Virus record (IMG/VR): IMGVR_UViG_3300042691_007013 | Span: 1-36,181 of that record | DNA from: a virus | Direction: 5' to 3' (one strand) | Length of the DNA stretch: 36,181 nt | Position numbers and translations under genes: made by a program | The notes under the pieces: model-generated | Told to the model about the DNA's origin: nothing | Database searches by the model: none | The model's input: only the letters and a program-made list of their open reading frames with translations | Shown: positions 1,952-36,181 of the stretch, in pieces | Layout of the letters: the number at the start of each line of letters is the position of its first letter | Numbering within the stretch: position 1 is the first letter of the stretch

Positions 1952-3106
1952 ATGTCTGATAAAGTTACAGTTCAAACAGTAGATAGTCTTCAAAACCAAA
2001 CTTCTGCTTTAAATAAAATTAATTCAAACTTTACAGTTCTGGCTGATAAAATAGACACACTGTTGTCACGGGATGGTGACACTCCAAATCAAATGGAAAG
2101 TGTTCTAGACATGAACTCTAACAGAATTATAAACCTTCCCGTACCAGAAAATACCACTGAGCCAGTTAGATTAGCAGAAATCCAAACCTTAGTTAGTGGT
2201 GGTATCCCAGAAGGCTCTATTGACGGAGATCGTATCACAGTAGGTACTTTGCCAGAAAATAGAATTGAGGGTAAAGTCTCTAATTCTAAATTAACCGACA
2301 TGGCCCAAGCGACAGTTAAGGGTCGGGCCTCCGGTTCGGGCACTGGCCCTCCGGTCGATCTGACTGGCGCACAGCTTGCCGCAATTATTGGTTCTGGCTC
2401 AGTTGATGGCGCTAACATCACCAACGGCACTGTGGTTAACGACAAGCTGGCCAACATGCCAGCGGCTACGATCAAAGGGCGAGCCTCCGGCGCGGGCACC
2501 GGCGTTCCGGTCGATCTGACCGCTGCCCAAGTACGTACCATTATTGGAAATGTCGGGTCTGCTGTCGACGGCCTCGCCCCTGCCTCTGGCGGCGGGGCGG
2601 TAAATTTTCTAAGGGCTGACGGAACGTGGGCTGCGCCCAGCAATATCACGCTTAGAACGCAGCAGACCACGACCAGTGGAACGCAATTCGACTTCACGGG
2701 GCTCCCCGCTGGCATCAACGAAATCGTCGTGCATTTTGACAGCGTGTCCTTGACTGGGACAGACCACTTAATCGTGCAGCTTGGAACCAGTAGCGGTGTT
2801 GACGCCGCCTCGTATGTCTCTACGTCGTTGTTTATTGCGGGAGGCTCCAATGGGCAGAGCGCCAATAGTACCAGTGGCTTTGCTGTCTTCATAGGAGGGG
2901 CGGCAAACATCCATTCGGGGCAAATGGTTATTCGGCGTATGAGCGGCAACAAGTGGACGCAAAGCCACGCGGGCCACACAGGTTCAATCTCTGCTTGTTC
3001 GGGCGGTGGCGTCAAAACTCTTTCGGCGGAACTAGACCGCATCCGCATTACCCGTACCGGCACGGACACATTTGATGCTGGCGCTGTCAACATCAGCTAT
3101 ACTTAG
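1952..3106 (+). CDS. Tail fibre / receptor-binding protein (mosaic)
   Basis: A 384-residue tail fibre. Residues 1-85 form a conserved fibre N-terminus with the signature MESVLDMNSNRIINLPVPEN, which is known from phage fibres as the virion-attachment part. Two copies of a 26-residue repeat (about residues 116-141 and 168-193, core KGRASG.GTG.PVDLT) form a shaft. A linker (FLRADGTWAAP) leads to a Ser/Gly/Thr-rich beta C-terminal domain (about 230-384), the likely receptor-binding tip. Base composition changes sharply inside the gene: by direct count 1981-2040 has 15 G+C of 60, while 2461-2520 has 42 of 60. This fits replacement of shaft and tip by DNA from a GC-rich source. The next gene starts 12 bases after the stop. 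Confidence 0.8.
   Translation: MSDKVTVQTVDSLQNQTSALNKINSNFTVLADKIDTLLSRDGDTPNQMESVLDMNSNRIINLPVPENTTEPVRLAEIQTLVSGGIPEGSIDGDRITVGTLPENRIEGKVSNSKLTDMAQATVKGRASGSGTGPPVDLTGAQLAAIIGSGSVDGANITNGTVVNDKLANMPAATIKGRASGAGTGVPVDLTAAQVRTIIGNVGSAVDGLAPASGGGAVNFLRADGTWAAPSNITLRTQQTTTSGTQFDFTGLPAGINEIVVHFDSVSLTGTDHLIVQLGTSSGVDAASYVSTSLFIAGGSNGQSANSTSGFAVFIGGAANIHSGQMVIRRMSGNKWTQSHAGHTGSISACSGGGVKTLSAELDRIRITRTGTDTFDAGAVNISYT
2297..2530 (+). repeat. Direct repeat pair in tail fibre shaft
   Basis: Two diverged 78-base units, 2297-2374 and 2453-2530, spaced 156 bases start to start. They encode the two 26-residue shaft repeats of the fibre (KGRASGSGTG versus KGRASGAGTG followed by .PVDLT). Such in-gene repeats are usual in trimeric fibre shafts and can serve as recombination points. 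Confidence 0.8.
2300..3106. other. GC-rich segment, likely acquired fibre tip
   Basis: From about base 2300 to the fibre stop the DNA turns GC-rich with CGG/GGC-type codons, and it returns to AT-rich sequence at the lysin gene (3118). The left edge falls inside the fibre gene, just before the first shaft repeat; the right edge falls at the gene end. This is the pattern expected of horizontal exchange of a host-range module. Confidence 0.65.
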
Positions 3107-3117
3107 TGAGGTAATGT

Positions 3118-3924
3118 ATGAATAGAAATATCTTTTTTGAATACGTAAGAAAAGCCCCATTCGGGAATCGACTTACCCAGTCTCAAGTTGAAGGTCTTAC
3201 TAAGATTCTTGACGAATGGGAAGTCAGGAAGTTAGAAGACGACAGATGGTTGGCCTATATCTTAGCTACTGCTTTTCATGAGGTTGCGGCTACTATGCAG
3301 CCAATTTTTGAAAGGGGTTCAAAGGATTATTTTAATAGGTACGATATTAACCACAATCCTAAAAAGGCTAGGGAACTAGGTAACGTAAACCCCGGAGATG
3401 GTTTTAGATACCGTGGCAGAGGGTTTGTACAACTAACAGGTAGAACTAACTATCGTAAATTTGGTATTGAAGACAAGCCTGACGAAGCTCTCAAACTAGA
3501 CAAATCAATTAAGATTTTGTTTGACGGTATGATTAAGGGTATGTACACAGGGAAAAAACTCAATGACTATTTCAATGATTCTGTGGATGACCCTGTAAAT
3601 GCTCGTAGGATTGTAAATGGCACAGACAAAGCCAAGCTTATTGCTAAGTACCACGATAACTTCCTAGACTCTATTAAAGCTGCTAGGTCTGGACTAGTAA
3701 AAGAAAACACACCAGAGAAGGTTCTTACTGAAGATGTTAAAGTCACAGAAGAGATACCAGCACTGGGTACAGTTATTTCTGCGGCGGGCGGCATTGGTGG
3801 TCTTGGGTTTCTTGTTGGTATTAACAACCTTTATGCTCTTGCTGCCTTTGGTTTGGTTCTTGTTGCTGCTGTGGCTATTGGATACGCTTACTTATCCGGT
3901 AAACTAGTTATTAAGAGGACGTAA
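3118..3924 (+). CDS. Endolysin, GH19 chitinase-like, with two C-terminal membrane segments
   Basis: Cell-wall hydrolase for host lysis. Residues 1-190 match the GH19 (chitinase/muramidase-like) phage endolysin pattern: AFHEVA with candidate catalytic Glu55, a second acidic residue Glu65 in IFERGSKDYFNRY, and the family signature FRYRGRGFVQLTGRTNY at 96-112. A charged linker (about 190-212) is followed by two hydrophobic segments (about 213-235 and 238-260) and a basic tail KLVIKRT. The enzyme is therefore probably tethered to the inner membrane, or the tail has a holin-like part. No separate holin is obvious nearby. The start ATG 3118 has GAGGTAAT upstream. The stop overlaps the i-spanin start (TAATG). 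Confidence 0.85.
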   Translation: MNRNIFFEYVRKAPFGNRLTQSQVEGLTKILDEWEVRKLEDDRWLAYILATAFHEVAATMQPIFERGSKDYFNRYDINHNPKKARELGNVNPGDGFRYRGRGFVQLTGRTNYRKFGIEDKPDEALKLDKSIKILFDGMIKGMYTGKKLNDYFNDSVDDPVNARRIVNGTDKAKLIAKYHDNFLDSIKAARSGLVKENTPEKVLTEDVKVTEEIPALGTVISAAGGIGGLGFLVGINNLYALAAFGLVLVAAVAIGYAYLSGKLVIKRT

Positions 3925-4163
3925 TGTTTCTATTATCTAAGATAAAAGAATGGTTCCTGTATGTGTCTATATTAATTTCTGTTGTAGGGGGTATTTATCT
4001 TAGAGGTTTTCTTAAAGGCCGACAATCTGAGAAACAAAAACAACAGGAATACAATAACAAGGCTATAGAGGTTCGGAAGGAATTAAACAATGAAATATCT
4101 AAATCTTCTGATTCCGAGCTTGACGCTCGCGCTGCTAGTTGGATGCGCAAGCCCCCAGAGTAA
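3924..4163 (+). CDS. i-spanin (Rz-like)
   Basis: A 79-residue protein with one N-terminal transmembrane segment (about residues 10-30, LYVSILISVVGGIYLRGFL) followed by a charged, Lys/Glu/Gln-rich coiled-coil region. This is the layout of inner-membrane spanins, which link to an outer-membrane lipoprotein and disrupt the outer membrane at lysis. It overlaps the endolysin stop at its start and contains the start of an o-spanin-like gene in another frame at its 3' end, the usual Rz/Rz1 arrangement. Assignment is by topology and context. Confidence 0.7.
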   Translation: MFLLSKIKEWFLYVSILISVVGGIYLRGFLKGRQSEKQKQQEYNNKAIEVRKELNNEISKSSDSELDARAASWMRKPPE

Positions 4164-4296
4164 CTTCTGTGCTACTGAGTCTCCGTACTACTTTACAGAA
4201 AAAGAGTACAAGGCTTGGAACAGAGAAACTAAAGAACGAATTGTTAGCCATAATGAGTTTGGCAAAAAACAATGTAACTGGAAGACAGTAAGATAA
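4090..4296 (+). CDS. o-spanin (Rz1-like lipoprotein), overlaps i-spanin
   Basis: A 68-residue lipoprotein that starts inside the i-spanin gene in a different frame. It has a lipoprotein signal peptide (MKYLNLLIPSLTLALLVGC) with lipobox LVGC, so Cys19 would be lipidated. The mature part has two further Cys and the stretch RIVSHNEFGKKQC, which recalls the ERQIVAHN-type motif of phage Rz1-like proteins. It would form the outer-membrane half of the spanin complex. A ribosome binding site (AAGGAATTAAAC) precedes the ATG. Its stop overlaps the next start (TAATG). Confidence 0.7.
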   Translation: MKYLNLLIPSLTLALLVGCASPQSNFCATESPYYFTEKEYKAWNRETKERIVSHNEFGKKQCNWKTVR

Positions 4297-5060
4297 TGGC
4301 AACCCTACTTTCAATTGTACAAGAAGTAATGCAAAGCATTGACGGTGACGAAGTTAACTCTATTGGGGATACTCTAGAGGCTGCTTCAGTTGCCGGGGTT
4401 GTAAAGGCTTGCTTTGACTCTATAGTAACAACTAAAGATATTAGAGAGTCTCAGGTTCCTTTTACTCTTACTGCCTACGGTGTAACAAAACCAGTGTTAA
4501 TGGAGCGGCCAGACGATATTATCAGTGTTGACTGGATTAAATATGATGTTCGAGAGGACGGTGATCCATACCCTCAGTGGCGTACCATTGAGTATCTAAA
4601 CCTAAAAGAGTTTCTTGAGTATAGTCAAAACTTACCGGGCCAACTAGACGAAACTATGTTTGGTTCTTTTGTACAAAATATTAACGGAAGCAACATTACT
4701 TTTTATTACAGAAAAGACGTTGCTCCTAGGTTCTTTACGACTATTGACGATAAACTTATTTTGTTTGACGGTTACGACAGTGAAGTGGAAAGTTCCTTAC
4801 AAGAATCGAAGACAACCTGCTTTGGTGTTTATAACTTGGAGTTCCAAAAAAATGATGGCTTCGTTATTCCTTTTGATCGAAAAACTACGCAACAACTAAT
4901 TGAAGACTCTAAAGTTAGAGCTTCAATTGAACTAAGACAAACACAGAATCCTGCTGCTGAAAAAGCTGCTCGCAGGCTACACGTCAGGTCACAATTTGAC
5001 AACAGGCAGGTAGGTGCGCCGGATTCATACGAAAATAGGATTGGCTATGGTAGAAAATAA
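4296..5060 (+). CDS. Tail tubular protein A-like gatekeeper (T7 gp11-like)
   Basis: A 254-residue protein placed directly before the nozzle gene, as T7 gene 11 precedes gene 12. N-terminal helices (LLSIVQEVMQSIDGDEVNSIGDT) lead to a beta-containing middle and a C-terminal helical, charged end, which fits the gp11-like tail adaptor/gatekeeper family joining portal and nozzle. The start is ATG 4296, overlapping the preceding stop. The family call comes from resemblance and synteny rather than from one diagnostic motif. Confidence 0.75.
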   Translation: MATLLSIVQEVMQSIDGDEVNSIGDTLEAASVAGVVKACFDSIVTTKDIRESQVPFTLTAYGVTKPVLMERPDDIISVDWIKYDVREDGDPYPQWRTIEYLNLKEFLEYSQNLPGQLDETMFGSFVQNINGSNITFYYRKDVAPRFFTTIDDKLILFDGYDSEVESSLQESKTTCFGVYNLEFQKNDGFVIPFDRKTTQQLIEDSKVRASIELRQTQNPAAEKAARRLHVRSQFDNRQVGAPDSYENRIGYGRK

Positions 5061-5262: not shown

Positions 5263-7387
5263 AGCTTCCGGCACAAGTGTTGAGAATAATTTTACCAAGG
5301 GATTTCTAACTGAGTTCTCAGGTTTTAACTTTCCAGAAAACGCTTGTGCTGAAACTCTCAACTGTGTCTTTGATCAAACTGGGAGTGTTTCTCGTAGACT
5401 AGGTTTAGGTTTAGAAGAGGTCGAATCTCCACCAACTATTGCCTACAACTCTACTTCTATTTTTACCTCTTTCGTCTGGAAGTCAGCAGGATACAGAAGT
5501 GAGAATAGCTTTCTTGTTCATCAAGTAGACAACCTGCTCTATTTTTACAGAATTGTAGGAGACAAGATTGCAGACAACAAAACAAGCTTTACTTTTGACT
5601 TAAACTCTGTACGTACAGACGGTCTAACATCTGCTCAGCCCGGTTTGTATCTTTGCCAGTTTGCTAACGGTTCAGGACGGCTGTTTGTTGCTAATCCAAA
5701 TACAGAACCATTTTACTTAAAGTATGACACAGACACAGAGACTATTTCAGCCACAACGATTTCTGTAAAAATCAGAGATTTTAAAGTTTTACCGGATGGC
5801 TACGACATTATTTCTAACATGCCCTTTTCACTTGCGTCCTCTAACCAAGCTTACGTATACAATATTAAAAATCAAGGTTGGACAGACGCTATTCTAAGTG
5901 GTTGGAATAGTCAAGGAAACAGTCAATATCCAAACAAAGGACAGGTTTGGTGGTACTTTAGAGATGCTGCTCAGAGTGCAATAGTCCCTTACTTCCTAGA
6001 CTTTAGACCTGGGGCTAGATACAAGTTCCAAGATTTAGGCGCTTCCTTAGCCCCCCGTGGTACTTACATCTTAAACGCATTTAACCAAGATAGAAACGCT
6101 GTGTCTGGCCTTGTGGGGCTTCCAACACTTAGTTCTAGAACTAAGAGGCCGGGGTGTAGCGCGTTTATTAACGGTAGATTGTTCCTTTCTGGTGTAGAAG
6201 CTGATGGGTACAACGGTGTTGTGTACTTCAGTAACATTCTAAAGGACGTAGACGACGACATTAGGTTTTATCAAAACGGTGACCCAACTTCAGAAGTAAA
6301 CCCACAGCTTCTTCCCAATGACGGGGGTACGTTTATTATTCCCGAGGCTGGGCGTATTATCAGGATGATTCCTGTTAAAAGCACTCTAGTTATTTTTGCT
6401 ACCAACGGTATTTGGGTTGTACAGGGTAACGAAGGAGTTGGGTTTACCGCAACTGACTTCACAATTGAAAAGATTAGTGATGAACCTTGTATTGAAAACC
6501 AATCTTACGTAGTTGTGTCAACCTTTCCAATTTGGTGGACTAACGAAGGTATTCATACTCTACAATCTTCAAATATTGGTGCAATTAACTCACAGTCATT
6601 AACAGAAAAGACTATCCAAACTTTTTATGATGAAATTCCACTAGCCTCTAAGAAGTATGTTAAATCTGGTTACAACTCTTTAACTAAAGAAATTTTCTGG
6701 TTGTATTCAAGTAATTCTACAAGTCCTAGAATCTATAACAGGGTCTTAGTATTGAACTTAAATACAGAGGGGTTTTATCTACATTCTTTACCAGACAACT
6801 ATTCTATTGTAGACATTGTTTCACCGCCTGTAGCTGAATCCACTGTAGAAACGGTTAACGTGACTAACAACGCTGGGACGACTGTAGTTAACAGCACTTC
6901 CGCTGTAGTGACTGTAGAAAAATTTGGTGACTTTAACTCAGACTCATTAGGTAATGTCAAATTTGTAATTAAGTATCTAACTAACAAGATTGGATTTGCC
7001 AAGTTTCAGAATACTGATCTTAAAGACTGGGCTGACTTAACATCTCCGGGAGTTAACTACAACTCATACTTTATTACAGGCCCAAGAGTCCGTGGCGATG
7101 GTCAACGTAAATTCCAAGAAAACTATGTAACTGTGTTTTCTCGATACAAAGTTAACGGGTCTTGCTGGATGTATTCAATCTGGGATTATGGTAACAACAC
7201 CAACTCAAATAGGTGGGGGACTCCACAGCAAGCTATTATTCTTAATGCCAACTACAACTATTATTCCAGAAGGCTCAAGATTAGAGGCAACGGTAGGGCA
7301 GTGCAGTTCCGGTTTGAATCCGAGGGAAACAAACCATTTGACATCTTAGGTTGGTCAGCATTTGAGACTGTTAATGAACGAGTATAG
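5255..7387 (+). CDS. Tail tubular protein B-like nozzle (T7 gp12-like)
   Basis: A 710-residue tail nozzle/stabilisation protein, somewhat shorter than T7 gp12. The N-terminus (NFTKGFLTEFSGFNFPENAC, then SVSRRLGLGLEE) matches the opening of podophage tail tubular B/stabilisation proteins (N..G..TE.....FPEN.......G...RR.G). The middle contains many short beta strands of a propeller-like platform (for example IIRMIPVKSTLVIFATNGIWVVQG). The start ATG 5255 overlaps the preceding gene by 8 bases. The gene's 3' end overlaps the GNAT gene start. Confidence 0.85.
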   Translation: MARASGTSVENNFTKGFLTEFSGFNFPENACAETLNCVFDQTGSVSRRLGLGLEEVESPPTIAYNSTSIFTSFVWKSAGYRSENSFLVHQVDNLLYFYRIVGDKIADNKTSFTFDLNSVRTDGLTSAQPGLYLCQFANGSGRLFVANPNTEPFYLKYDTDTETISATTISVKIRDFKVLPDGYDIISNMPFSLASSNQAYVYNIKNQGWTDAILSGWNSQGNSQYPNKGQVWWYFRDAAQSAIVPYFLDFRPGARYKFQDLGASLAPRGTYILNAFNQDRNAVSGLVGLPTLSSRTKRPGCSAFINGRLFLSGVEADGYNGVVYFSNILKDVDDDIRFYQNGDPTSEVNPQLLPNDGGTFIIPEAGRIIRMIPVKSTLVIFATNGIWVVQGNEGVGFTATDFTIEKISDEPCIENQSYVVVSTFPIWWTNEGIHTLQSSNIGAINSQSLTEKTIQTFYDEIPLASKKYVKSGYNSLTKEIFWLYSSNSTSPRIYNRVLVLNLNTEGFYLHSLPDNYSIVDIVSPPVAESTVETVNVTNNAGTTVVNSTSAVVTVEKFGDFNSDSLGNVKFVIKYLTNKIGFAKFQNTDLKDWADLTSPGVNYNSYFITGPRVRGDGQRKFQENYVTVFSRYKVNGSCWMYSIWDYGNNTNSNRWGTPQQAIILNANYNYYSRRLKIRGNGRAVQFRFESEGNKPFDILGWSAFETVNERV

Positions 7388-7835
7388 TTTTAGACTAGCA
7401 ACTAAAGGAGACGAAGAAGCTCTCTACGATATGTGTGTAAGCTTTTTTATATTCTCTGAGTTTTCTAAACACAGACCATATGAGCCGGAAAAGATCAGAG
7501 AAACTATCGACTGGTACTTATCTAGACCTAACAATGAAGCTGTAGTTATTCTTCTTTGTTACAATGATTTTCCAGTTGGTATGTTAAGCCTTATCAGTGC
7601 TCCGGCTCCGTTCTGGAATGGGTTTCTAGCCTCAGAACAAGTATGGTGGGTAGACCCTAATCACAGAGGCCGATATTCGTTGATGATGGTTGACCTAGCC
7701 GAAGAATGGGCAAAGAAATCAGGGTGCTTGGGTATTGCGTTTAGCGCCCTGAACTCTAATGACATGGTTACAAAGATTTACGAAAAGAAACAATTCAAAC
7801 TAACAGAACTAGCTTATTACAAGGATATTAAATAA
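7374..7835 (+). CDS. GNAT-family N-acetyltransferase
   Basis: A 153-residue protein with a GNAT layout: N-terminal FRLATKGDEEALYDM, a central strand pair (VVILLCYNDFPVGMLSLIS), the WWVDPNHRGRYSLMMVDLAEEW segment that fits the acetyl-CoA-binding V.P..RG.G....L motif, and a C-terminal IYEKKQFKLTELAYYKDI as in GNAT enzymes. It would transfer an acetyl group from acetyl-CoA; the acceptor is unknown. The start is ATG 7374, inside the nozzle gene's end; an upstream TTG at 7362 is less likely. It takes the place where T7 has gene 13, between nozzle and ejection proteins, so it may act on virion proteins or be packaged. Confidence 0.75.
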   Translation: MNEYSFRLATKGDEEALYDMCVSFFIFSEFSKHRPYEPEKIRETIDWYLSRPNNEAVVILLCYNDFPVGMLSLISAPAPFWNGFLASEQVWWVDPNHRGRYSLMMVDLAEEWAKKSGCLGIAFSALNSNDMVTKIYEKKQFKLTELAYYKDIK

Positions 7836-8289: not shown

Positions 8290-11200
8290 GTGATTGAATT
8301 ACTTGACCAAGAGATTGCTGCTCAGGAGCAGATTGATCTAAACAACATTAATCAGGGTAAAGAACAAACAGTGTTCCGTGACCCATACGCTCAGAAGAGA
8401 GCGTTGATGGCTAATGTAGCTTCTAAAGGAGAGATTACTACTGAGTCTGCCTTGGCTAAAATTCAAAACCAAGAAGAAGAATCACTACGTCTACATCTAC
8501 GCAACAAAGAAGCTGCTGAGGCTTCCCGCGTGAAGGCGTCTGTGCTTACTGAGTACATTCGTAATAGAGACCCTAGCAAGTCCGTAGACTCTGCTGAGCT
8601 TGCCGCTATCTCTAGTCTTAAAGATGAAGACATTGAATCCCCTGAGAAGTTGTCTACAGCCGTAGAGCGTAACTTTGCTAAAGAGATTACTAACCGTGGC
8701 CTAGCAACCAAGCCAGCGGTACGAGAAGCTTTTAACTCAGAAAACCCTGAAGCTGTAGACGGTGTAGCCCAAGCTTCACAGGACCTTATTGCACGTGCCC
8801 TTATTGCTGAGAGGCACCTAGAGCGTATCAAAGGCATTGCCGAAAAACAATCTTTGTCTGGTTACATTGCTGACCAAGCTAAGCAGATTTTTCCCGGTTA
8901 TAACTGGTACAAGAAACACAATATTGCTACTCAGACTGTTATCTCAGATATTTTACCCGGCAACAGCATGGTTGCCCAGATTCAGTACTTGTATTCCCTC
9001 CCGCCAGAGCAGTTTGACAAAGCTCTAGGTGAAGCTATTGACCGTCTTAACAAAGACAACACCCCACTGGCAAAGGAGTTTGCTCAGGGTGTAATTCAAT
9101 ATGGTTCACTTGATCAATCACTAGAAAACTCTTTTGCAATTCTAGACGCAATAGGTATTGGTGAGGTTGGTGTACAGGTTGGTAAAGCTGCTGTCAAAGG
9201 GTTAACCAAGAAGACTATTCTTAAGAACGCTGTTAAAGACGTAGCGGAGGCCGCCAGCAACCCTAAGTCAACTGCGGCTGATGTAGTAGCTGCCACAGGT
9301 GATCTGGACACAGCGGCCCTTCTAAACGCCGGGAAAGCAGTACAGCTTAGGGCTAGAGGTCTTAGAAAGGCAGAAGAAGTCGCAGAGTTTGCTGACATCG
9401 TAGCTCCGTCTATTACTCGTCCTAACGCTCCGTTTGCTGGTGCTTCTCGTCTTACTGCTGGTATGACAGCACAGGTTGTCGAAAAGCTAGAAGCTAGTGG
9501 TACTGGTGTTATGAACGCCCTTACAAAAGGGTTTGGTGTTCTGCGTCTTGATGAAGAGACTGCGGCATTGCGTTCGGCTATGGACAAAGCCATTAATGAC
9601 ATGGCGGACATCCACAAGTTTGACCCTAACAATGCTGTACTAGATTACCGTTGGGTTCCTAATACAGAAGACAAGATTGGTCGTTCCAACTCTGTTGTAA
9701 TTGAACTTGGTACACAGAACAAGAGCAACTTTGACACCCCTATTCAGGCAGAGAACGCTGCTCGTCAAATCTACAACCTTATTGATGGTGACTACAACAT
9801 TGTACAAAAAGGTGGTGGTTTCCACATTGAAGTACGTAGGGACCTAATTGAAACTGCTGACTCTGTACGTGACGCTCTGATTACTACTGCTAACCAGAAC
9901 CCTGAAGGTCTAGTAAACCTGATGCTTGGTAAGGTCCGTAGTGCTGAGGGTCTTTTGTCTAAGTCTCAGAACGAAAACCGTAAAGTTGCTCTAGGTTCTG
10001 CTGAGACAGTCAAGAGATGGATCGAGGATTCTTTCCAAGACCTAGGTAAGTACGCTAGAGACTCCAAGAATCGTGAAACCCTGTCTAGGCTTCTAGAACA
10101 GAACCGTAAAGACGAGCGTTGGTACAACTCTGCTGCTGATTTTGAGAAGGCTTTCTACGACACAACTGGCCGTTATCCAACACCAGATGACCACGTAGCT
10201 TACCGTCAGGCTGTACAGATTAGTGACCTAGACTACCTTGTACGTAACTCTGATTACTATTCTCGTAAAACCCGTCAAGGGTATATGAAATTTGAAATCG
10301 AGGGTCCTATTATGAACGAAGGTGCTGAGGCTGCTACAGCACCGTTTGGACGTGCTAGTGAGTCTAACATATCGACTACAACTACTAAATTTGAAGGCCG
10401 CATTGTTGAGCAACTACCAGAGTCAGGTAAGACTGGCCGAGTAGTTATGGTCAACCCTAACGGTGGTCACAAAGTTGTAGATGTAGCTGACTACTCACCA
10501 ACTGAACTTAAGGAAATGTACAAAGATTGGGGAGACAATGGTTACAAGTTTATCCAAATCCAAAACCCATTAGACCCAGCCCTAGAAAAGTTTAGACCAA
10601 CTAAAGATAATGTACCGATTAATTTTGTTGCTGTACGTAACGTTAAATCAGCTAGGCTTGATCCTGTACAAGTGCCTTACAAGCCCGGTGGACACACCTC
10701 CTACGAAGGGGGTTACTACGTAGCTTCGCCTTCTGTATCACCTATTCTTCGTAATGGTCAGTTTGCTGGTGAGTCCTACAATGGTGAAAAGATTGTAGCT
10801 CAGTTTCGTTTAGAAAAAGACGCCAAGAAGTTCTTTGACGATCTAGAAGTAGCTAGACAGAAACTAGATGCCCCTGACTTTGATGCTTATGTACAAAGCA
10901 AGTTCGGCATTACTCCCGGTGAAGTACGGGCTATGTTTGACCTAGACAAAGGTGGTGTAGACCCTAAAAGGGCTCTGTACATCAAGAACGATGGTCAGTC
11001 ATTCAAGGATATTCGTCCTAAAGAATACAACGAAATGATTGACTACACTGAGTCTAAGTTCAATCCTTCTGCTGAGATTAACTTAGAGTTCATCTCCAAG
11101 AAGAACAAGGATGTATTTTCGTTTCAGCGTGGCTCTGCCCAGAACCCAATCTGGAACAAGACAGACGCTAATATTGTAGACCCTTTGCTGGCTATGCGTA

Positions 11201-24011: not shown

Positions 24012-24515
24012 TTAGAATGGAATTGCGTCGTTAAAGATTTTGGTTTCAGTCTTTGGTTCTTCGTCTGTTCTACCTTCCTTTTCATACGGAACAAGCTGGG
24101 TAATAAGTACACCATCTAGGCGGCAAGCAGTGCCATAAGCGTGATCGTACACGGAAAGCTTGATAGTTCCCTTTGTACGATTGCCAATCAGGTCAGTGAA
24201 CGGGGTGTTAGTGCCGTCTTCATTTCTAATCTTGACTTCTGGTACACCGCCAAACTGAGGGTAGGTCTTGTGGTTTAGATAGCGGCGGAACTGTACAAAC
24301 TGTTCACCAGTCTCATCATCAATCTTGATAGTGTTACGGGTCTTGAAAGCCTTGAAAGCCTTTAGGTCATCCTTGTTGTCGAAGGTAAAATCTACAGAAC
24401 AGAAAGGACCCTTGTCCTCACCGCCCGTGTTCTTGTCTACGAAAGTCTGGGCGTTCTTCTCGTTAAGCTTAGCCCACTTGAAAGTACCACTGAAATAAAC
24501 TGTTTGTGTTGCCAT
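24012..24515 (-). CDS. Single-stranded DNA-binding protein (T7 gp2.5-like)
   Basis: A 167-residue OB-fold type protein. The start (VYFSGTFKWAKLNEKN) and the middle (CSVDFTFDNKDDLKAFKAF, EVKIRNEDGT, IGNRTKGTIKLSVYDHAYG...LDGVLITQLVPYE) follow the phage gp2.5/DUF2815-like SSB pattern. The end is acidic and finishes with an aromatic residue (ETKIFNDAIPF), the known tail type by which gp2.5 contacts polymerase and helicase. It stands among polymerase, nuclease and helicase genes. Confidence 0.85.
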   Translation of the reverse strand: MATQTVYFSGTFKWAKLNEKNAQTFVDKNTGGEDKGPFCSVDFTFDNKDDLKAFKAFKTRNTIKIDDETGEQFVQFRRYLNHKTYPQFGGVPEVKIRNEDGTNTPFTDLIGNRTKGTIKLSVYDHAYGTACRLDGVLITQLVPYEKEGRTDEEPKTETKIFNDAIPF

Positions 24516-29010: not shown

Positions 29011-29285
29011 GGGTTGTCTCCTACAAGGATGGCGGTTTCAATCCAGAACGAAACGTCTTGTGCCGCTGTGTCGTAGACCTCTGACGGAGATTGTTCGTCT
29101 CGCCAAACATCGGGAACACTGAAGCGATTTGGCATCTTGTGTTCAGCGGCAATCCTCGCACACCTCTCCCGCTCTTCCATGATGGCGCGGGCGATCAGTT
29201 TCGCCCGGTCGTTGTCAGAGTAGCCGCACACGCTGTAAACTAGGCTCCGCGCCTTCACCAAAATATCCTCGGGTATCTCACTCAT
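29007..29285 (-). CDS. Hypothetical accessory protein, GC-rich
   Basis: A 92-residue protein with an N-terminal helical part (MSEIPEDILVKARSLVYSV) and RAKLIARAIMEERERCARIA, a pattern (LI.RAI..ERERCA.IA) frequent in short genes of alphaproteobacterial phages and prophages, to my recollection especially those of rhizobia. No function is known. Codon use is GC-rich, unlike the phage backbone. Its ends overlap both neighbours by four bases (ATGA). Confidence 0.6.
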   Translation of the reverse strand: MSEIPEDILVKARSLVYSVCGYSDNDRAKLIARAIMEERERCARIAAEHKMPNRFSVPDVWRDEQSPSEVYDTAAQDVSFWIETAILVGDNP

Positions 29286-29458
29286 TTTTCACCTATCGAG
29301 CAGGAGGGTGTAATGGTGCGCTGGGTCTCGATCTTGGAAATGTCGAAGCCCGGTTCATTCACCGCCAGCGACATCGGGCCGGGCAGACTTTCACAGCCGG
29401 TCAAGAACATCAGCAGCGCCGCCGCACTCAACATCATTGTTTTCCGCTTATCACTCAT
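29282..29458 (-). CDS. Putative small lipoprotein
   Basis: A 58-residue protein starting MSDKRKTMMLSAAALLMFLTGC. Basic residues, a hydrophobic core and the lipobox FLTGC make Cys22 the probable lipidation site. The mature part is about 37 residues (ESLPGPMSLAVNEPGFDISK...). A longer frame to 29521 is rejected because it overlaps the upstream gene and hides the signal peptide. It is outside the lysis cassette and in the early strand, so a surface role such as blocking superinfection is possible but unproven. Confidence 0.6.
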   Translation of the reverse strand: MSDKRKTMMLSAAALLMFLTGCESLPGPMSLAVNEPGFDISKIETQRTITPSCSIGEK

Positions 29459-29669
29459 TCCCGTAAATCCTGTTCTGGTTGTCCCGCATCCACTTACGAG
29501 CAGCACGGAAACATTGATCAAAAGTTAAAAAACTTCTAGGATCAAGGTGTATACACTTTACGCCGATTATGTTGAAGTAAAAATTTTTAGACCTCTTACT
29601 TTTAAAAATTTGAAAGTTAGGAAAGTTCCGAACGTCTACAAAATACCTTAAGGTTTTAACACCCGTCAT
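29451..29669 (-). CDS. Hypothetical protein with mixed base composition
   Basis: A 72-residue basic protein. The first 50 residues are AT-rich coding (FQIFKSKRSKNFYFNIIGVK), the last 22 (QCFRAARKWMRDNQNRIYGNE) more GC-rich, so the right edge of the GC-rich segment lies inside it. Function is unknown. Overlaps with neighbours at both ends support translation. Confidence 0.5.
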   Translation of the reverse strand: MTGVKTLRYFVDVRNFPNFQIFKSKRSKNFYFNIIGVKCIHLDPRSFLTFDQCFRAARKWMRDNQNRIYGNE

Positions 29670-30209: not shown

Positions 30210-30300
30210 CTAAGTTAATATACAAGTAGAATATTATACTAAGTTACTAAGTTAATTATATACTCAGTAACTTAGTTATTAACTATGCTGAGCTAAGTTA
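30210..30300. repeat. CTAAGTTA iteron-like repeats
   Basis: The 8-mer CTAAGTTA occurs at 30210-30217, 30239-30246, 30247-30254 and 30293-30300, with one inverted copy (TAACTTAG) at 30268-30275; the last direct copy includes the ATP-grasp stop codon. A further inverted pair, AGTATATAA (30201-30209) and TTATATACT (30256-30264), surrounds them. Copies are irregularly spaced. Confidence 0.65.
30238..30276. repeat. 11-base inverted repeat
   Basis: ACTAAGTTACT (30238-30248) and AGTAACTTAGT (30266-30276) are perfect reverse complements with a 17-base loop. There is no T-run directly after it on either strand, so it does not look like an ordinary terminator. It may be a protein-binding site or an origin hairpin. 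Confidence 0.65.
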
Positions 30301-31071
30301 TACCGCCCGAATCGCTTCGACATAGGCATTTAGCGTAGAGCCCTGTAGACCCGGAGCAGAGTTGACTTCCAAGATCAGAGCCTTGTCCGCCTTCTGATTG
30401 TAAATAACATCAATAGCACCAAAATCAAGACCAAGAGCATTGTGATCATCCAGAAAATTAGTTACAGCTTGTTGAACAGGTACGGGTAGTTCGATATTTT
30501 GGTTGGCGTAGATAAACCCATTCTGTAGATTACGAATCTGGAAGTTAGGGTTCTGGAAATCCTTGACCATAGCCTTACGCTGTACAAAGATAACCTTGTC
30601 CTTGAAGAAGTGTACTCGGTATTCTTCCTTCTTGGGCATGTACATCGTGTAGAGAGGACATGGCTGCCATTGGTCTTGGTTGTCACTGTTCATTACAATG
30701 ATACCATTTCCTGAGTGGCCTGTCAAGACTTTTCTGCCAAAAACAGTCTTACCATCTGATACCCATTCTACGGCCCTAGCGTGGTCCGTAGTCCACTTTG
30801 GCACAATCGGGCTATCTCCCATCGCAGAGAAGAAAGAAAGCTTGTCAGCGGCCTTCCTAACGGCTTCTGGGGAATTTAAAATACGACACTTGAGAATCTC
30901 CTGATGCTGGATGTCAGAGTTACCCCAGTTCAGGACTGTTTTTGTATTTTTACCTACAAGTCGGTTTCGCTCCTTGTCTACACGTTTGACACCTAGGGCT
31001 TGTCCAAGAGCCGTAGCACTCTTGGAGCCCATCTTGTAAGGTACGATATAGAAATTCTTAGAAATGGCCAT
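30298..31071 (-). CDS. ATP-grasp ligase of the amidoligase cluster
   Basis: A 257-residue ATP-grasp enzyme, expected to activate a carboxylate as acyl phosphate and join it to an amine. The start is MAISKNFYIVPYKMGSKSA at ATG 31071 with GAGGA upstream; an extension to 31095 is less likely. Motifs are the glycine loop RKVLTGHSGNGI (113-124), EEYRVHFF (149-156), DFGAIDVIY (216-224) and the metal site ILEVNSAPGLQG (233-244; Glu235, Asn237), as in RimK/D-Ala ligase-type proteins. It overlaps the amidoligase gene by 14 bases. The substrate is unknown. A Gln/peptide ligase role is inferred from its partners. Confidence 0.88.
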   Translation of the reverse strand: MAISKNFYIVPYKMGSKSATALGQALGVKRVDKERNRLVGKNTKTVLNWGNSDIQHQEILKCRILNSPEAVRKAADKLSFFSAMGDSPIVPKWTTDHARAVEWVSDGKTVFGRKVLTGHSGNGIIVMNSDNQDQWQPCPLYTMYMPKKEEYRVHFFKDKVIFVQRKAMVKDFQNPNFQIRNLQNGFIYANQNIELPVPVQQAVTNFLDDHNALGLDFGAIDVIYNQKADKALILEVNSAPGLQGSTLNAYVEAIRAV

Positions 31072-32260
31072 CTGGATTTTCCTCATCCTCATCAAAGTCG
31101 TCTAGTTCTACATTTGGTTCTGGAACCTCTGGCTGTTCGTCCATAATTTCGTCAATTGGGATAATTCGAGCCCACTCTGGCAATCCTTGCCTTAGGACCA
31201 ATAAGTTTTCTTCATTGTTGGCAAGTCTAGCTCGTGGTGGGGCCTCTTCAACAATTACAGCATTGTTATTCAGCCGGGGCAGAGGTTGGTTAGGTCGAAA
31301 AGGCTCTGGCTTTTGTTGTGTTTCTCTTAGGAACTTTTTATAGTAGTCGTATGATAGGATTGTGTTTACATCCTTGTGTCCCCAAAATTGAGCGTTGTAG
31401 TCCTGTAGACCATCTACGTTACGCCAATCGCACTTAGGATTGGTAAAGTCCCAGCCAGTAGGATGAGAAGACATAAGATCGTAGAACAGAGATAGCTGGC
31501 TGTTAATCTTCTCACGATAATCAATGTTACGTTCTTCACAGAAGTCAATAAGAGCTTTTGGTAATAGTGACTGAAAGTCAATCTGTGCAGGAGTCTTGTG
31601 TGTACACATCTTCTTAATGTCTAGAAGAATCTGAACCCACTCGAAGATGTCCTCGATGTCAGTAAGACCACGCATAGTACGAACTTCTACAGTCCCAAGA
31701 CGCATTAGAGATTCTAAGTTTACAGAAGTGTACTTGTTGTCATTGTTGACAAACCGATAGTCTTGCTTGGACACAAGGTCACGAACAGCATTGTAGGTAC
31801 TAAGAGACTTACCGGCTTCTAATGCAAACAAATTACCTTTACGGGACTTGCCAGAATACTCTGCAATAATGTCCTCAATAAGAAGCATATGGCAGTAGAA
31901 GGTAATCACCTCGTACAGAAGATTCTGAGAGAAGTTAAGATGTACGTGGATTGAAGTACGCGGGCTAGTGGTACAAAATAACTCCCAAGGGAAACTTTCG
32001 TTGTAAGTAGCCTTGGCAAAGTCAATCTCGTACTCGTTCATAACCTTGGAGATAATCTCGTAACCACCGTTACGAAGGGAACCATCAGCCTTGGTGTGCC
32101 AGTTAGCTTCGTAAGCTACGTTACGTGGCATGATGTCAAGAGCACGAACATTAGGCTTTGGCTCTACCTCAATCTCTACACCGAAAGCGTCTTTGTAAGC
32201 TTTGCTATGCTTCTTGACACCGAAGATGTAGGACACCTGTTTTGTAAGCAGGCCACTCAT
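31058..32260 (-). CDS. Amidoligase (COOH-NH2 ligase, glutamine synthetase-like fold)
   Basis: A 400-residue protein of the putative amidoligase family (Amidoligase_2-like). Conserved features are FGVEIEVE (26-33), WHTKADGSLRNGGYEIIS (54-71), SIHVHLN (103-109) and GTVEVRTMRG (189-198), the acid/His/Arg positions that bind metal-ATP and substrate in this fold. The family is predicted to form amide bonds between carboxyl and amino groups. After about residue 330 follows a Pro-rich and then strongly acidic tail (for example DDFDEDEENPDG). The gene overlaps its neighbours by 4 and 14 bases, so expression is coupled to the ATP-grasp partner. Confidence 0.85.
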   Translation of the reverse strand: MSGLLTKQVSYIFGVKKHSKAYKDAFGVEIEVEPKPNVRALDIMPRNVAYEANWHTKADGSLRNGGYEIISKVMNEYEIDFAKATYNESFPWELFCTTSPRTSIHVHLNFSQNLLYEVITFYCHMLLIEDIIAEYSGKSRKGNLFALEAGKSLSTYNAVRDLVSKQDYRFVNNDNKYTSVNLESLMRLGTVEVRTMRGLTDIEDIFEWVQILLDIKKMCTHKTPAQIDFQSLLPKALIDFCEERNIDYREKINSQLSLFYDLMSSHPTGWDFTNPKCDWRNVDGLQDYNAQFWGHKDVNTILSYDYYKKFLRETQQKPEPFRPNQPLPRLNNNAVIVEEAPPRARLANNEENLLVLRQGLPEWARIIPIDEIMDEQPEVPEPNVELDDFDEDEENPDGHF

Positions 32261-32907
32261 TGTAGTACACTCCTGATAAGATCAATGTCTTTAACTAGGT
32301 ACTGACGGTTAAACTCTGCTGTAGTAGAGTTAATGTTACTAGGTGTAATATCCTTACCTTTGTTGGTAAAAGAAATTACCTTGTCACGCATAAAGAACAG
32401 TGTAACAATCTTGAAATCGTTGACACTGATCCAATTGAATCGACGAACTGCGCACCTGTTAGTGCCATCCTTACGAAGATACTCTGGAATTACATTACTC
32501 AGTGAAGGGTATGTATTGTCTAGCATTGAGTAAAAACCAGAACAATGGAAGAAACCGATAGAACCATCTTCACCGTACATACACCTGAAACGAACAGATT
32601 GAGGGTTGATACCCCCTTTGTACTGTCGGACAGGTACACGCTCAGCTAGAAACACATCGTTATGATCAGTAAACATACCAACCTTGGGACACGAGTAATC
32701 TAACTCCTTGATAGAACCAGAGATTATATCACCAAAGTAATTTGTACCTACGAAGGTAAACTCTCTGCTGTCTGGTAGTTTGGATACCTGTTCGATATTA
32801 ACCCACTTACCTGTTGGTGTGTGTTTACAGATAGACTTACGAAGTCTCTGGTCTACGTCCTGAAGTGAAGTAAACGCGTAGAGATCAACATCATCTGATG
32901 ACTTCAT
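32257..32907 (-). CDS. Unknown protein within the amidoligase cluster
   Basis: A 216-residue protein that I cannot assign. It is mixed alpha/beta with clear strand-like parts (SREFTFVGTNYFGDIIS, SVRFRCMYGEDGSIGFFH, FKIVTLFFMRDKVISFTN) and five cysteines. No ATP-grasp, ligase or amidotransferase motif is visible, and there is no signal peptide or membrane segment. It lies between the two ligases, one base from the type 2 ligase stop and overlapping the amidoligase start by four bases, so it is probably part of the same pathway: a further enzyme, an adaptor or the acceptor protein. Confidence 0.65.
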   Translation of the reverse strand: MKSSDDVDLYAFTSLQDVDQRLRKSICKHTPTGKWVNIEQVSKLPDSREFTFVGTNYFGDIISGSIKELDYSCPKVGMFTDHNDVFLAERVPVRQYKGGINPQSVRFRCMYGEDGSIGFFHCSGFYSMLDNTYPSLSNVIPEYLRKDGTNRCAVRRFNWISVNDFKIVTLFFMRDKVISFTNKGKDITPSNINSTTAEFNRQYLVKDIDLIRSVLQ

Positions 32908-32908
32908 G

Positions 32909-33811
32909 TTACTTTGCCTCCATTTTGTAGTTTCTAAAGAAATTCTTCAGTTTAGACTTAGAAGCATTGTTTGGAACATCGTAACTCTCCCAGTAAGTAG
33001 AATAGGAGTAGCATTCGTGCCTGCCAATAATTCTTTCAGTACCGTACAACCTTACTCCCCCATTACCATATTCTACAATATCAATGTCACTTTTCTTAAC
33101 CTGTTCTACAAGTTCAATAATAGTTTCAAATAGAACACGGGCAATATCAGGTTGGTCAACCCAAGCGTTACTAAGAACACGATACTCTAGACCATAGGGC
33201 TTTGGCCTAAAAGCACCGGGTTTACCGTAGAGTTTACGACGCTCAACGTCCTTGTCCCACTTGTATTCAAAGGGAAGGATAACATTGTCAATAAGCATCG
33301 TAAGTACACGACAATTTACAAAGTGATCGTACTTCTCTACATCGTCCTTGAAAGGTTTCTTAGGGTTACGCCAACCAATATGAATATGCCCTGAACCAGT
33401 ACGCATGGTCTCAAAGCCCTTACGCTTTTCTTCAGGAATTATAACATTCTCCTTACCAGTGTAAGCGTCGAAGTCAGGGTCACATCCAAGTTCTTTGTTA
33501 GCACTTGGAATAGTTGCCCAATAGTCACTGTCAAACTTAACAGCAGGTACAGAACGAAGAACTACATCCTTGTCTGATTGCTGGATAATTGACTCAATGT
33601 TCTTACGCACTTTGATAATACGATTAACGAAAACATCTACTGAGTCAGTTGGGATAATGTTAAACTCAGCAGCAGTACCGTCAACCTGTACAGCACCTTC
33701 GTCTACTGGCAGAGGATTACGCTTGTCACCAGAGAGAAGGTTGTGTACCGATATAGGCTTATCGCCCTTGAATGCGAATAGTTCCGGGTCAGCACCAATT
33801 AGTACAGACAT
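32909..33811 (-). CDS. phiEco32-type COOH-NH2 ligase (type 2)
   Basis: A 300-residue protein fitting the phage phiEco32-like COOH-NH2 ligase type 2 family. It opens with GADPELFAF (6-14) and has DGTAAEFNI (44-52), LGCDPDFDAY (108-117), TGSGHIHIGW (138-147) and YGLEYRVLSNAW (206-217), giving the acidic, His and Arg residues expected for an ATP-dependent amide-forming active site. A second ligase beside the amidoligase suggests two successive couplings or two acceptor sites. It lies between the class II amidotransferase and the unknown 216-residue gene in one tight array. Confidence 0.87.
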   Translation of the reverse strand: MSVLIGADPELFAFKGDKPISVHNLLSGDKRNPLPVDEGAVQVDGTAAEFNIIPTDSVDVFVNRIIKVRKNIESIIQQSDKDVVLRSVPAVKFDSDYWATIPSANKELGCDPDFDAYTGKENVIIPEEKRKGFETMRTGSGHIHIGWRNPKKPFKDDVEKYDHFVNCRVLTMLIDNVILPFEYKWDKDVERRKLYGKPGAFRPKPYGLEYRVLSNAWVDQPDIARVLFETIIELVEQVKKSDIDIVEYGNGGVRLYGTERIIGRHECYSYSTYWESYDVPNNASKSKLKNFFRNYKMEAK

Positions 33812-33823
33812 GATAGGAGTCCC

Positions 33824-35254
33824 TTAGTTAATGTTGATAGACTTGACTGGTGTGCAGTTACCGAAGCAGGAAAAGTGTGAGCCCGGTTGGTCTGACCAGT
33901 TACGCATTTCATCGTAAGAAAAGTCACGGCCACATACACCACAACCACAGGCTACTAGGTTCTTATAATGATGAAGACTGACAGCACGGTTCATACTCAA
34001 GAAGAAAGTAACAAACGTGTTGAGTTCCTGTGATGTTGGAAGGTAATCAGTACCAAAGTTCATGATACCGTTTTCAATTAGATCGTTAATTGAATCAGTA
34101 TCAATGTCCAATTCTTCTGAGGCTTCCATAATTACACGAATATCTTCTGGGCTAAAACCTACTTGCAGAAGATAGAACTCTGTAATTACTTCATTAGAAT
34201 TAGTAATACGACGAGTACGAATAATGTCACGGCTACGAAACGGGACTACGTTAGTAGTCTTACTCCTTTCTGACGAAGGACTCTTTCCATCTTTTTCATC
34301 TGTTTGGAGCTCAAAGAGGGATGGGTCCAGATTTCCCACAGGTTGAGTTCCGCTTGATTTTTCCACTGGTACAAGAGATCCATGAACTTTTTGTTCTTTT
34401 GGTTGTTTTGTTTGTTTTCTAGGTAGGGTAAGGTTTTCCCTTTTTTCTCCAAGTTCTTCCACCAACCTGTCTGAGTAGAAACCACCCTCGAACCAGTCTT
34501 TGTCGTAATCGTACGATCCGTACGCCCCGTAGTTCTGGTGTCGAAAGGGTTTAGTAGCTTTTACTTCTACCTCCTCTTCCTCAAAGTCCATACGCTCATC
34601 ATACTTGAGAGTAATTCGCTTGTGTACTGGAAGCTCCACAATGTCCGCCTTGGGAATGTTGAAAGCTGCCATAAGCATCCACTCTTCTGATGCGTAAAAG
34701 AACTTCCACTTACCTCGCTTGGCATAGAACAGAGGTCGTTGAGAGTTACGAATAATAGTAATTGTCTTTTCCTGATTGTCCCAGATAACTAGACAATACG
34801 CACCAAGTACATCAGGAAGAACTTTTTCTAGATCACCACCGGATTCACTAAGCTTGTTAGTCAACCACTCTGAGTCAGTCTCATACCCAGTGTGTACATT
34901 GTTAAGTGTTCCGTTGTGGAACACAACAAACCGCCCACACTTGGACAGAAATGGGTGCGCATTTTGAGTATTGACAGAACCCTTGGTTGCAGACCGTGTG
35001 TGACCTAGTAGAGCATAGAGGTTTACTGGCTTGATAAACTCCCTAACCTCTGGTAGTTTGGAGAAAGAAATAGGGTCCCGTGCTGACTTAAGGAAGTTAA
35101 CATATGCGGGTCGCTTGTTAGGAGAACCAGCTACACGAAGATAACCAGTAGAGTCAATACCACGCACTGATGATAGGAAACTGATTTTCTTGAACTGTTC
35201 CTTGTCAAAATCGTGTAGCGCACTTGCGCTGACCATACCAAATAGACCACACAT
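33824..35254 (-). CDS. Class II glutamine amidotransferase with Cys-rich C-terminus
   Basis: A 476-residue Ntn-type glutaminase that frees ammonia from glutamine. The nucleophile is Cys2 (MCGLFGM; the initiator Met must be removed), with VRGIDSTG (30-37), GHTRSAT (84-90), HNGTLNN (113-119) and DSEWL (127-131) as in GlmS/PurF/AsnB-type domains. After about residue 240 comes a region unlike the usual synthase partner: a basic, disordered linker, a helical part and a C-terminal CGCGVC...CFGNC cluster (Cys436, 438, 441, 463, 467) that may bind zinc. Ammonia or a glutamyl group would be passed to the neighbouring ligases. The stop overlaps nothing; the start shares one base with the class I gene stop. 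Confidence 0.88.
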   Translation of the reverse strand: MCGLFGMVSASALHDFDKEQFKKISFLSSVRGIDSTGYLRVAGSPNKRPAYVNFLKSARDPISFSKLPEVREFIKPVNLYALLGHTRSATKGSVNTQNAHPFLSKCGRFVVFHNGTLNNVHTGYETDSEWLTNKLSESGGDLEKVLPDVLGAYCLVIWDNQEKTITIIRNSQRPLFYAKRGKWKFFYASEEWMLMAAFNIPKADIVELPVHKRITLKYDERMDFEEEEVEVKATKPFRHQNYGAYGSYDYDKDWFEGGFYSDRLVEELGEKRENLTLPRKQTKQPKEQKVHGSLVPVEKSSGTQPVGNLDPSLFELQTDEKDGKSPSSERSKTTNVVPFRSRDIIRTRRITNSNEVITEFYLLQVGFSPEDIRVIMEASEELDIDTDSINDLIENGIMNFGTDYLPTSQELNTFVTFFLSMNRAVSLHHYKNLVACGCGVCGRDFSYDEMRNWSDQPGSHFSCFGNCTPVKSININ

Positions 35255-35919
35255 TACGCTGCCTCGCTAGGTTCACTAGTGGATTCAGGTTCCAGATAGA
35301 TGTTCGGCATCTTGTGTTTGATTACTGCCCAGAAGAGTTCTTCTGTGTTTTCGTGACCGTATTCAGGGTGCGGTTGAAAACATAGACACTTTTCCTTGGA
35401 GTAGTACACAACCTCCATGTCATCTGTGAAGTGTCCACCAATAAGAGTCGCACCGTCACGTACACGACGAGAAGACTCCTTGGCTACAGCGATAATCTCA
35501 GCATCGAAAGCCGGAATCATCTGCTGGTGATGGGTGGACGTTACCTCACCAAACTCTTCTTCAAAGTTAGCTGAGTAAACTAGATGAGTCTTACCGTGGT
35601 TGTTAACGTCTTGGTACATAGAACCACCACACTGAGTGTTTAGAAACTGAGCACCACGGCAGATACCAATCTTAGGTTTATCCTTGTGTGTCTCGTATAG
35701 AGTCTCACAATATTCATCTCTCTTGTAGTTAACACTTTTGGTTACAGCTAAACGTTTCTGACCATATAGTTCTGGGTTGATGTCTTCACCACCGGAGAAT
35801 ACAATAATGTCTGCAACCTTGTGGTTCTTGACAATAGTGTAACCACGTTTGTTGAACATCTTCTGAATTAGCGTATCTCCGTCTTCTACAAATACCTTAA
35901 GCTGCTTCTTTGTGCTCAT
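35254..35919 (-). CDS. Class I glutamine amidotransferase-like (C26-type) hydrolase
   Basis: A 221-residue protein of the class I GATase fold, closest in pattern to gamma-glutamyl hydrolase/PuuD-type enzymes. The triad is visible: Cys87 in GICRGAQFLN, His184 and Glu186 in FQPHPEYG. FSGGEDINPELYG (41-53) and STHHQQM (128-134) are further PuuD-like features. It may cleave gamma-glutamyl bonds or supply ammonia. ATG 35919 is preferred; other starts upstream (ATG 35943, TTG 35952) have no clear ribosome binding site. Its start overlaps the preceding gene by 23 bases. Confidence 0.85.
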   Translation of the reverse strand: MSTKKQLKVFVEDGDTLIQKMFNKRGYTIVKNHKVADIIVFSGGEDINPELYGQKRLAVTKSVNYKRDEYCETLYETHKDKPKIGICRGAQFLNTQCGGSMYQDVNNHGKTHLVYSANFEEEFGEVTSTHHQQMIPAFDAEIIAVAKESSRRVRDGATLIGGHFTDDMEVVYYSKEKCLCFQPHPEYGHENTEELFWAVIKHKMPNIYLEPESTSEPSEAA

Positions 35920-36181
35920 CTGGGAGTTTTCCGTTCTTGACATAATAGACAATGTTTTCTGTAGTCCACAGAAGATTGTCGGAAATTGGTTTCAGTGTAC
36001 CGAACAAAATCTTTCTCTTGGCACTAATTGGGCTTGGTTTACCATCTGCAAATGGGTGTTCTTGGTCCCAAAGGGCTAGGTCGTTACCATTAGGAGAAAA
36101 TCCGTTTGGTTTGTTAGGTTTACCCTCTAGGAACTTGGAGCTAAACACATTATTAAGGAAATGATGGTTAAGGAAGTGACC
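35897..36181 (-). CDS. Hypothetical protein, start outside the window
   Basis: The frame is open to the window edge. Codons beyond a possible GTG start (36148) read as plausible protein (GHFLNHHFLNNVFSSKFLEG), and that GTG has no clear ribosome binding site, so the start is probably beyond 36181. The visible 94 residues include NKPNGFSPNGNDLALWDQEH, a Lys-rich middle and TTENIVYYVKNGKLPDEH. I recognise no family. Overlap with the class I amidotransferase gene makes it part of the amide-forming cluster by position. Confidence 0.55.
   Translation of the reverse strand, partial: GHFLNHHFLNNVFSSKFLEGKPNKPNGFSPNGNDLALWDQEHPFADGKPSPISAKRKILFGTLKPISDNLLWTTENIVYYVKNGKLPDEHKEAA

Follow-up and report, generated by a model that had tools for sequence, protein, structure and literature searches.

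A phage cassette of amide-bond enzymes that may make and trim gamma-glutamyl bonds

The virus record IMGVR_UViG_3300042691_007013 of IMG/VR is a linear stretch of 36,181 bases (hereafter the window) which, lacking a completeness estimate in the record, may be a fragment of a genome. In its right part, six open reading frames (ORFs) that we call G1, G2, C, U, AL and AG run head to tail on the minus strand (35919-30298) and form a cassette of predicted amide-bond chemistry. On balance, we favour the reading that it encodes a cytosolic multi-enzyme phage pathway, which would make and then trim gamma-glutamyl-type amide bonds. The set is the known cassette of phiEco32-, LUZ24- and Zobellviridae-type phages and not a new system. 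New here are U as an obligate part of it, the linkage of two further families, GGCT (gamma-glutamyl cyclotransferase) and X, beyond the window, the rule that every non-redundant cassette locus with room carries G1 or GGCT, and the reading of G1 as a probable hydrolase. C and AG each match at least 312 phage records, among them those of the Pseudomonas LUZ24-like and E. coli phiEco32-like phages, which are common, and no product is established in the literature searched, as an original prediction made from the sequence alone had also said.

G1, GGCT and the enzymes of the cassette

G1 (35254-35919) has the fold of a class I glutamine amidotransferase (GATase) and is of the peptidase C26/PuuD-like kind. 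It scores 67.1 bits against PF07722, well past the gathering score of 20.5 (E-value 2.4e-18), and this match beats the one to the GATase family PF00117 (2e-6), so that an ammonia-donating GATase is not its best family match; phrog_7218 is matched as well. The triad C87/H184/E186 is invariant, and both the GxCxG nucleophile elbow and the His-x-Glu motif are present. The nearest solved relatives include lin1909 and the gamma-glutamyl-GABA hydrolase PuuD, and the best NCBIfam model, at a score far under its cut-off, is NF045546, gamma-glutamyl-CDP-amidate hydrolase. Because PF07722 is the best match and the nearest named relatives are gamma-glutamyl hydrolases, G1 is probably a gamma-glutamyl hydrolase rather than an ammonia donor. 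The original prediction of two glutamine amidotransferases is therefore probably wrong in function. Homologue alignment and the upstream sequence place the start of G1 at ATG 35919, not at TTG 35952.

GGCT is not in the window. It is found in a relative, locus L006 (handles of this form denote individual loci), whose AG is 97% identical to that of the window and which runs on beyond the window's right end; there GGCT lies just past that end, at 2679-3137 (PF06094, 2e-14). Gamma-glutamylamine cyclotransferase is a member of the PF06094 (GGACT) family (PMC2954230). The comparison covered 90 non-redundant loci with room, of which 48 have G1 only, 27 have both, 15 have GGCT only and none has neither. 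GGCT is thus present in 15/15 loci without G1, compared with 27/75 loci with it (Fisher p 2e-6). Since every one of the 90 loci has at least one of the two, the pattern is suggestive of a single shared need, the cleavage of a gamma-glutamyl amide.

G2 (33824-35254) is a class II (Ntn) GATase that matches PF13522 (5e-15) and, over its full length, phrog_4736. Cys2 and the R, N-G and D glutaminase motif are conserved in its relatives; the sole relative without Cys2 is L003:2494-3630, the annotated start of which is possibly wrong. The C-terminal tail carries a zinc-ribbon-like CxxC...C..C pattern, and the protein is without a SIS or synthase domain. A second, divergent class II GATase is seen in rhizobial phages, downstream of AG and adjoining GGCT (L003:9071-10207 and L012:10824-11930).

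Three of the proteins are ligases by family. C (32909-33811) is a phiEco32-like COOH-NH2 ligase type 2 (PF14395, 1.9e-6; phrog_3815, 1.6e-60) with conserved D8-x-E10, H142-x-H144 and an R/K/E/R set. AL (31058-32260) is a PF12224-kind amidoligase, which at 21.8 bits falls 0.2 bit below the 22-bit cut-off of that family and matches phrog_7469 at 1.6e-35; E29/E31/E33, H105-x-H107 and E192-x-R194 are invariant in its alignment. Both are presumably glutamine synthetase (GS)-like, as the family literature labels them; when compared here, their profiles gave no mutual recognition. AG (30298-31071) is an ATP-grasp ligase nearest to the RimK/MptN-type alpha-L-glutamate ligases (phrog_2599, 2.6e-75), with N56, K85, R121, E158-x-R160, D229 and E243-x-N245 conserved. 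Homologues and an upstream GAGGA favour ATG 31071 as its start, which is most likely correct in place of the listed TTG 31095. Against the RimK model TIGR00768 it scores 28.2 bits, where the curated cut-off is 143.4; AG is thus predicted to work like an ATP-grasp ligase and is not filed as RimK. Its closest solved structures are alpha-L-glutamate ligases, including ribosomal protein S6 modification enzymes, which makes glutamate the likeliest building block of the cassette.

The family motifs are complete in G1, G2, C, AL and AG. As the catalytic residues are kept in alignments with phage relatives (8-16 per protein), decay of these enzymes appears unlikely, in keeping with the intact active sites that had been predicted. 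Five recognisable amide-chemistry enzymes and one unknown protein had been expected at this place, and the ORFs bear this out: in Pfam and PHROGs searches all six proteins found a match and five of them a name, U matching only phrog_11055, of unassigned function. The proposed kinship with the families grouped by Aravind and colleagues and with phiEco32 phages was right too. The six ORFs are separated by gaps of at most 12 bp or overlap slightly; short overlaps are usual in translationally coupled transcripts. A Rosetta-stone search found no gene fusions between cassette families, and a library of defence systems gave nothing meaningful.

Conservation of the set across phages

Loci were collected as viral contigs anchored on AG or C and scanned with family profiles; they are not independent of one another, and the phages behind the profiles, on which the E-values depend, are partly related. 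Of 44 loci anchored on AG that had 7 kb or more upstream and 3 kb or more downstream, G2 was found in 43, AL in 43, U in 42, C in 42, G1 in 39 and GGCT in 20. The predicted co-occurrence in related phages is therefore seen at the level of sequence. The window's six-gene order is kept in PA11, CW02, CVT22, KZY1, Phriendly and phiM6, in some with small inserted genes, and LUZ24, phiEco32, APT65 and phage ZRK32 have a C-U-AL-G2-AG-GGCT core. The window order is common to many loci, and in others AG, C or G2 is relocated without loss of the set. Because the set survives such reshuffling, a shared function is more strongly backed than it would be by order alone. This leaves hardly any credit for the idea that unrelated moron genes came together in one transcript by coincidence: runs of small genes of that sort are frequent in the compact early regions of phages, but persistence across phage groups, also after reordering, refutes it.

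Matches to AG and to C are found in at least 312 public phage records each, with nearly equal host counts (Pseudomonas 120/121, Escherichia 93/93, Vibrio 22/22), and the set spans Zobellviridae, LUZ24-like, phiEco32-like and rhizobial phages, with a reduced form in crAss-like phages. In the crAss-like phages phi14:2 and cr108_1 (L183:7632-13276 and L184:5682-12738), AG, C, G2 and a divergent AL stand with GGCT or G1. At the DNA level, a search of phage records with the 7-kb region returned only scraps of close matches. A genome-collection scan for C gave eight hits, all in metagenome-assembled contigs, six of them with a phage-type primase beside the cassette, and none of the eight is a clearly cellular version. 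In most phages examined, the cassette adjoins replication genes.

U, X and the rest of the window

U (32257-32907) has 216 residues and no assigned function (phrog_11055, 3e-10). It lies between C and AL in 133/133 loci that have C and AL in that order, a count in which some contigs recur and related phages are included. The AlphaFold (AF2) model is mostly beta, with a mean predicted local distance difference test (pLDDT) score of 88.3. Its N-terminal half weakly resembles SH3/Tudor/KOW-like barrels (best Z 6.2 over 56 residues, root-mean-square deviation 2.1), which could reflect a common arrangement only, and a Foldseek search gave no E-value under 0.001. Arg90, Arg94, Gly77 and Gly99 are conserved and do not look like a catalytic set. 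The fixed position, the fold and conserved residues without a catalytic look together suggest that U is an adaptor for C and AL. It is not universal, being undetected in the crAss-like phages that keep a divergent AL. A single-sequence search of phage records with U found no match; the family is seen with profiles only.

X is an unnamed family of about 300 amino acids, found by clustering cassette neighbours. In the window it is represented by a C-terminal piece (35897-36181, minus strand) upstream of G1, matching the C-terminus of L006:3146-4018, a 291-residue ORF that lies between GGCT and G1 and is drawn into the X profile upon iteration (4.5e-18). Because this piece, read from 36181 to 35897, is the C-terminus of X, the right end of the contig falls inside X and the cassette extends beyond the window. 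The six genes originally predicted as a cluster are all present, but the set is larger, with GGCT and X belonging to it. In 77/106 loci X is found upstream of G1 at a distance of no more than 1.2 kb. A Cys, an Arg and a His are near-invariant and a Glu is mostly conserved; neither Pfam nor, with a model of mean pLDDT 78.7, the folds of the PDB gave a match. A degenerate GS fold was considered for X and rejected, as X does not match the C or AL profiles, and the glutamine synthetase rows of the fold search reach Z 2.6, which is noise level.

In a blind fold search of viral proteins with X, the named better hits include proteins from cassette carriers such as CVT22 and CW02, along with two from Cronobacter phage GAP52. 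The GAP52 hits (290 and 314 amino acids) fit in length two adjacent genes directly upstream of GAP52 C, the same position as that of phiEco32 gp87/gp88 and LUZ24 gp14/gp15, which by gene position are likely members of X. In the phiEco32-like phages APT65 and GAP52, X is present as two or three copies, in tandem or close together (L013:585-1379, 2297-3304 and 3583-4428; L185:8152-9024 and 9036-9980), which suggests diversification. Both X and U diverge quickly, mostly to 10-25% identity.

In the rest of the window, the plus strand of the left part carries head, tail and lysis genes, and the minus strand of the right part carries ribonucleotide reductase, ThyX, nucleases, DNA polymerase and primase-helicase, with the cassette last. 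On the minus strand, the beginning of the primase-helicase gene contains a 12/12 match to a sigma-70-like promoter (28300-28272). A 167-residue protein of unassigned function is encoded at 24012-24515, downstream of the DNA polymerase gene, and its family is present in 51 fetched loci. A small ORF with a lipobox-like LTGC motif (29282-29521) may encode a lipoprotein, for instance an outer spanin, and a GNAT acetyltransferase gene (7362-7835) stands amid tail and internal virion protein genes.

Candidate functions and comparison with known systems

In the pathway we favour, C and AL as GS-like enzymes and AG as a RimK-like ATP-grasp enzyme would use ATP to activate carboxylates for coupling to amines, so that as many as three amide bonds could be formed. 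G2, to judge from its intact Ntn domain, would hydrolyse glutamine and so provide ammonia or a glutamyl group for one ligase. G1 and/or GGCT would cleave the gamma-glutamyl-amine bond, as removal of a protecting group or trimming of the product, with U as a non-catalytic adaptor coupling C to AL and X as a further component, perhaps an enzyme. Strongly hydrophobic segments are found in 0-2.4% of the proteins per cassette family by a simple hydropathy scan, which is not a signal-peptide predictor. Because almost no cassette protein has such a segment, and none looks exported, the substrate should be in the cytosol, and peptidoglycan could be a target only by way of a precursor in the cytosol or a recycled peptide.

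Such a target has been put forward before. The set of the Pseudoalteromonas phages HP1/RIO-1 and of PA11, CW02, LUZ24, tf and phiEco32 is called a “peptidoglycan modification cassette” in a passage of PMC5498523 (citing Iyer et al. and Hardies et al. 2013), and is thought there to block superinfection, a view repeated in PMC10580990 and PMC11945000 (citing Iyer et al. 2009 and others). The likeliest single candidate for the target, and a tentative one, is a cytosolic precursor peptide of peptidoglycan; an altered new wall might then help the infected cell, for example against superinfection. A more specific version, which we consider doubtful, has an eight-part pathway (GGCT and/or G1, X, G2, C, U, AL and AG) lead to an undescribed gamma-glutamyl conjugate, with X as an enzyme and U docking the intermediate passed from C to AL.

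Several points weigh against the favoured pathway. On the best AG tree, the presence of G1 changes 12 times, but only four independent pairs are on supported branches, and a phylogeny-aware sign test of the G1/GGCT rule is not significant. The substrates of G1 and AG are suggested by distant homology, both proteins scoring far below curated NCBIfam cut-offs. It is unusual for one pathway both to make and to cut a given kind of bond, except for protection or trimming. The proposed peptidoglycan target comes from the earlier papers, not from data of this analysis, and we found no published assay or biochemical proof for any enzyme of the cassette in the literature searched.

Much of the same enzymology could serve a free metabolite, a small gamma-glutamyl peptide or polyamine made, or amines detoxified or recycled, for phage growth; we regard this as possible, if rather unlikely. 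The combination of ligase and C26 hydrolase follows the logic of a cellular parallel, in which the gamma-glutamylputrescine synthetase PuuA is paired with the hydrolase PuuD (PMC9397018), and in a yeast two-hybrid assay SpuB/PauA2, the gamma-glutamylpolyamine synthetase of the host, was bound by LUZ24 gp9 (PMC4635203). Of the conserved neighbours, however, none was recognised as an oxidoreductase or dehydrogenase of the Puu route. For a planctomycete phage that carries the cassette (here locus L182), a role in aiding nitrogen metabolism is proposed (PMC10945688), but that proposal is based on growth effects of phage addition and not on tests of cassette genes. As an observation of its own, LUZ24 gp9 is an antibacterial protein of a cassette phage (PMC4635203), with a possible link to gamma-glutamyl metabolism.

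Slightly less probable again is the tagging of a host or phage protein, to which AG and the two other ligases would add amino acids or a short peptide while U or X recognises or carries the target. The ribosomal protein S6 modification enzymes among AG's closest solved relatives and weak NCBIfam scores to peptide maturases speak for it, although AG falls below the RimK subfamily cut-off. The rapid divergence of X and U is frequent in recognition parts, and the barrel that the N-terminal half of U weakly matches is of a kind typical of binding domains. A simple tag, however, needs no gamma-glutamyl cleaving enzyme, yet every cassette has one, and three ligases with a glutaminase are a large outlay for one tag.

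DNA hypermodification, in which the ligases would attach amino acids to a modified base and so shield phage DNA, is very improbable. The position of the cassette beside replication genes in most phages seen speaks for it, as do the ThyX and ribonucleotide reductase genes of the window, but a known hypermodification gene was not recognised there. Many restriction enzymes cut the DNA of related cassette phages, that of phage tf being cut by RsaI, HpaI, EcoRV, SmaI and HaeIII (PMC3517423), while that of the LUZ24-like phage U17 is sensitive to 11/16 enzymes (PMC11945000), and the modified nucleotide listed among the originally predicted targets is weakened accordingly.

If the favoured gamma-glutamyl pathway is correct, the cassette would be a common phage route to remodelling host amines or the cell wall, and the G1-or-GGCT rule, U and X turn a vague label of peptidoglycan modification into testable chemistry. 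The Puu polyamine pathway likewise has a ligase that makes a gamma-glutamyl amine and a C26-type hydrolase that removes it, and PuuA is GS-like; the Puu pathway has oxidase and dehydrogenase steps, whereas the cassette lacks these and has three ligases. The RimK/MptN alpha-L-glutamate ligases share the ATP-grasp fold and are the nearest solved and curated relatives of AG, which nevertheless scores far below their family cut-offs. In the crAss-like cassettes of phi14:2 and cr108_1, AG, C, G2, AL and either GGCT or G1 are shared with the set described here, but AL is very divergent and no U or X was detected. LUZ24 (gp16-gp22) and phiEco32 (gp77-gp86) share the C-U-AL-G2-AG-GGCT core and are without G1, with G2 placed after AL, whereas in the window G1 and G2 stand ahead of C. 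The podovirus cassette of PMC5498523 has the same C, AL, AG and G2 and, by comparison with L006, also GGCT, in a similar order and likewise before the primase. The passage that describes it does not name U and X as parts, and G1 is read here as a probable gamma-glutamyl hydrolase, interchangeable with GGCT.

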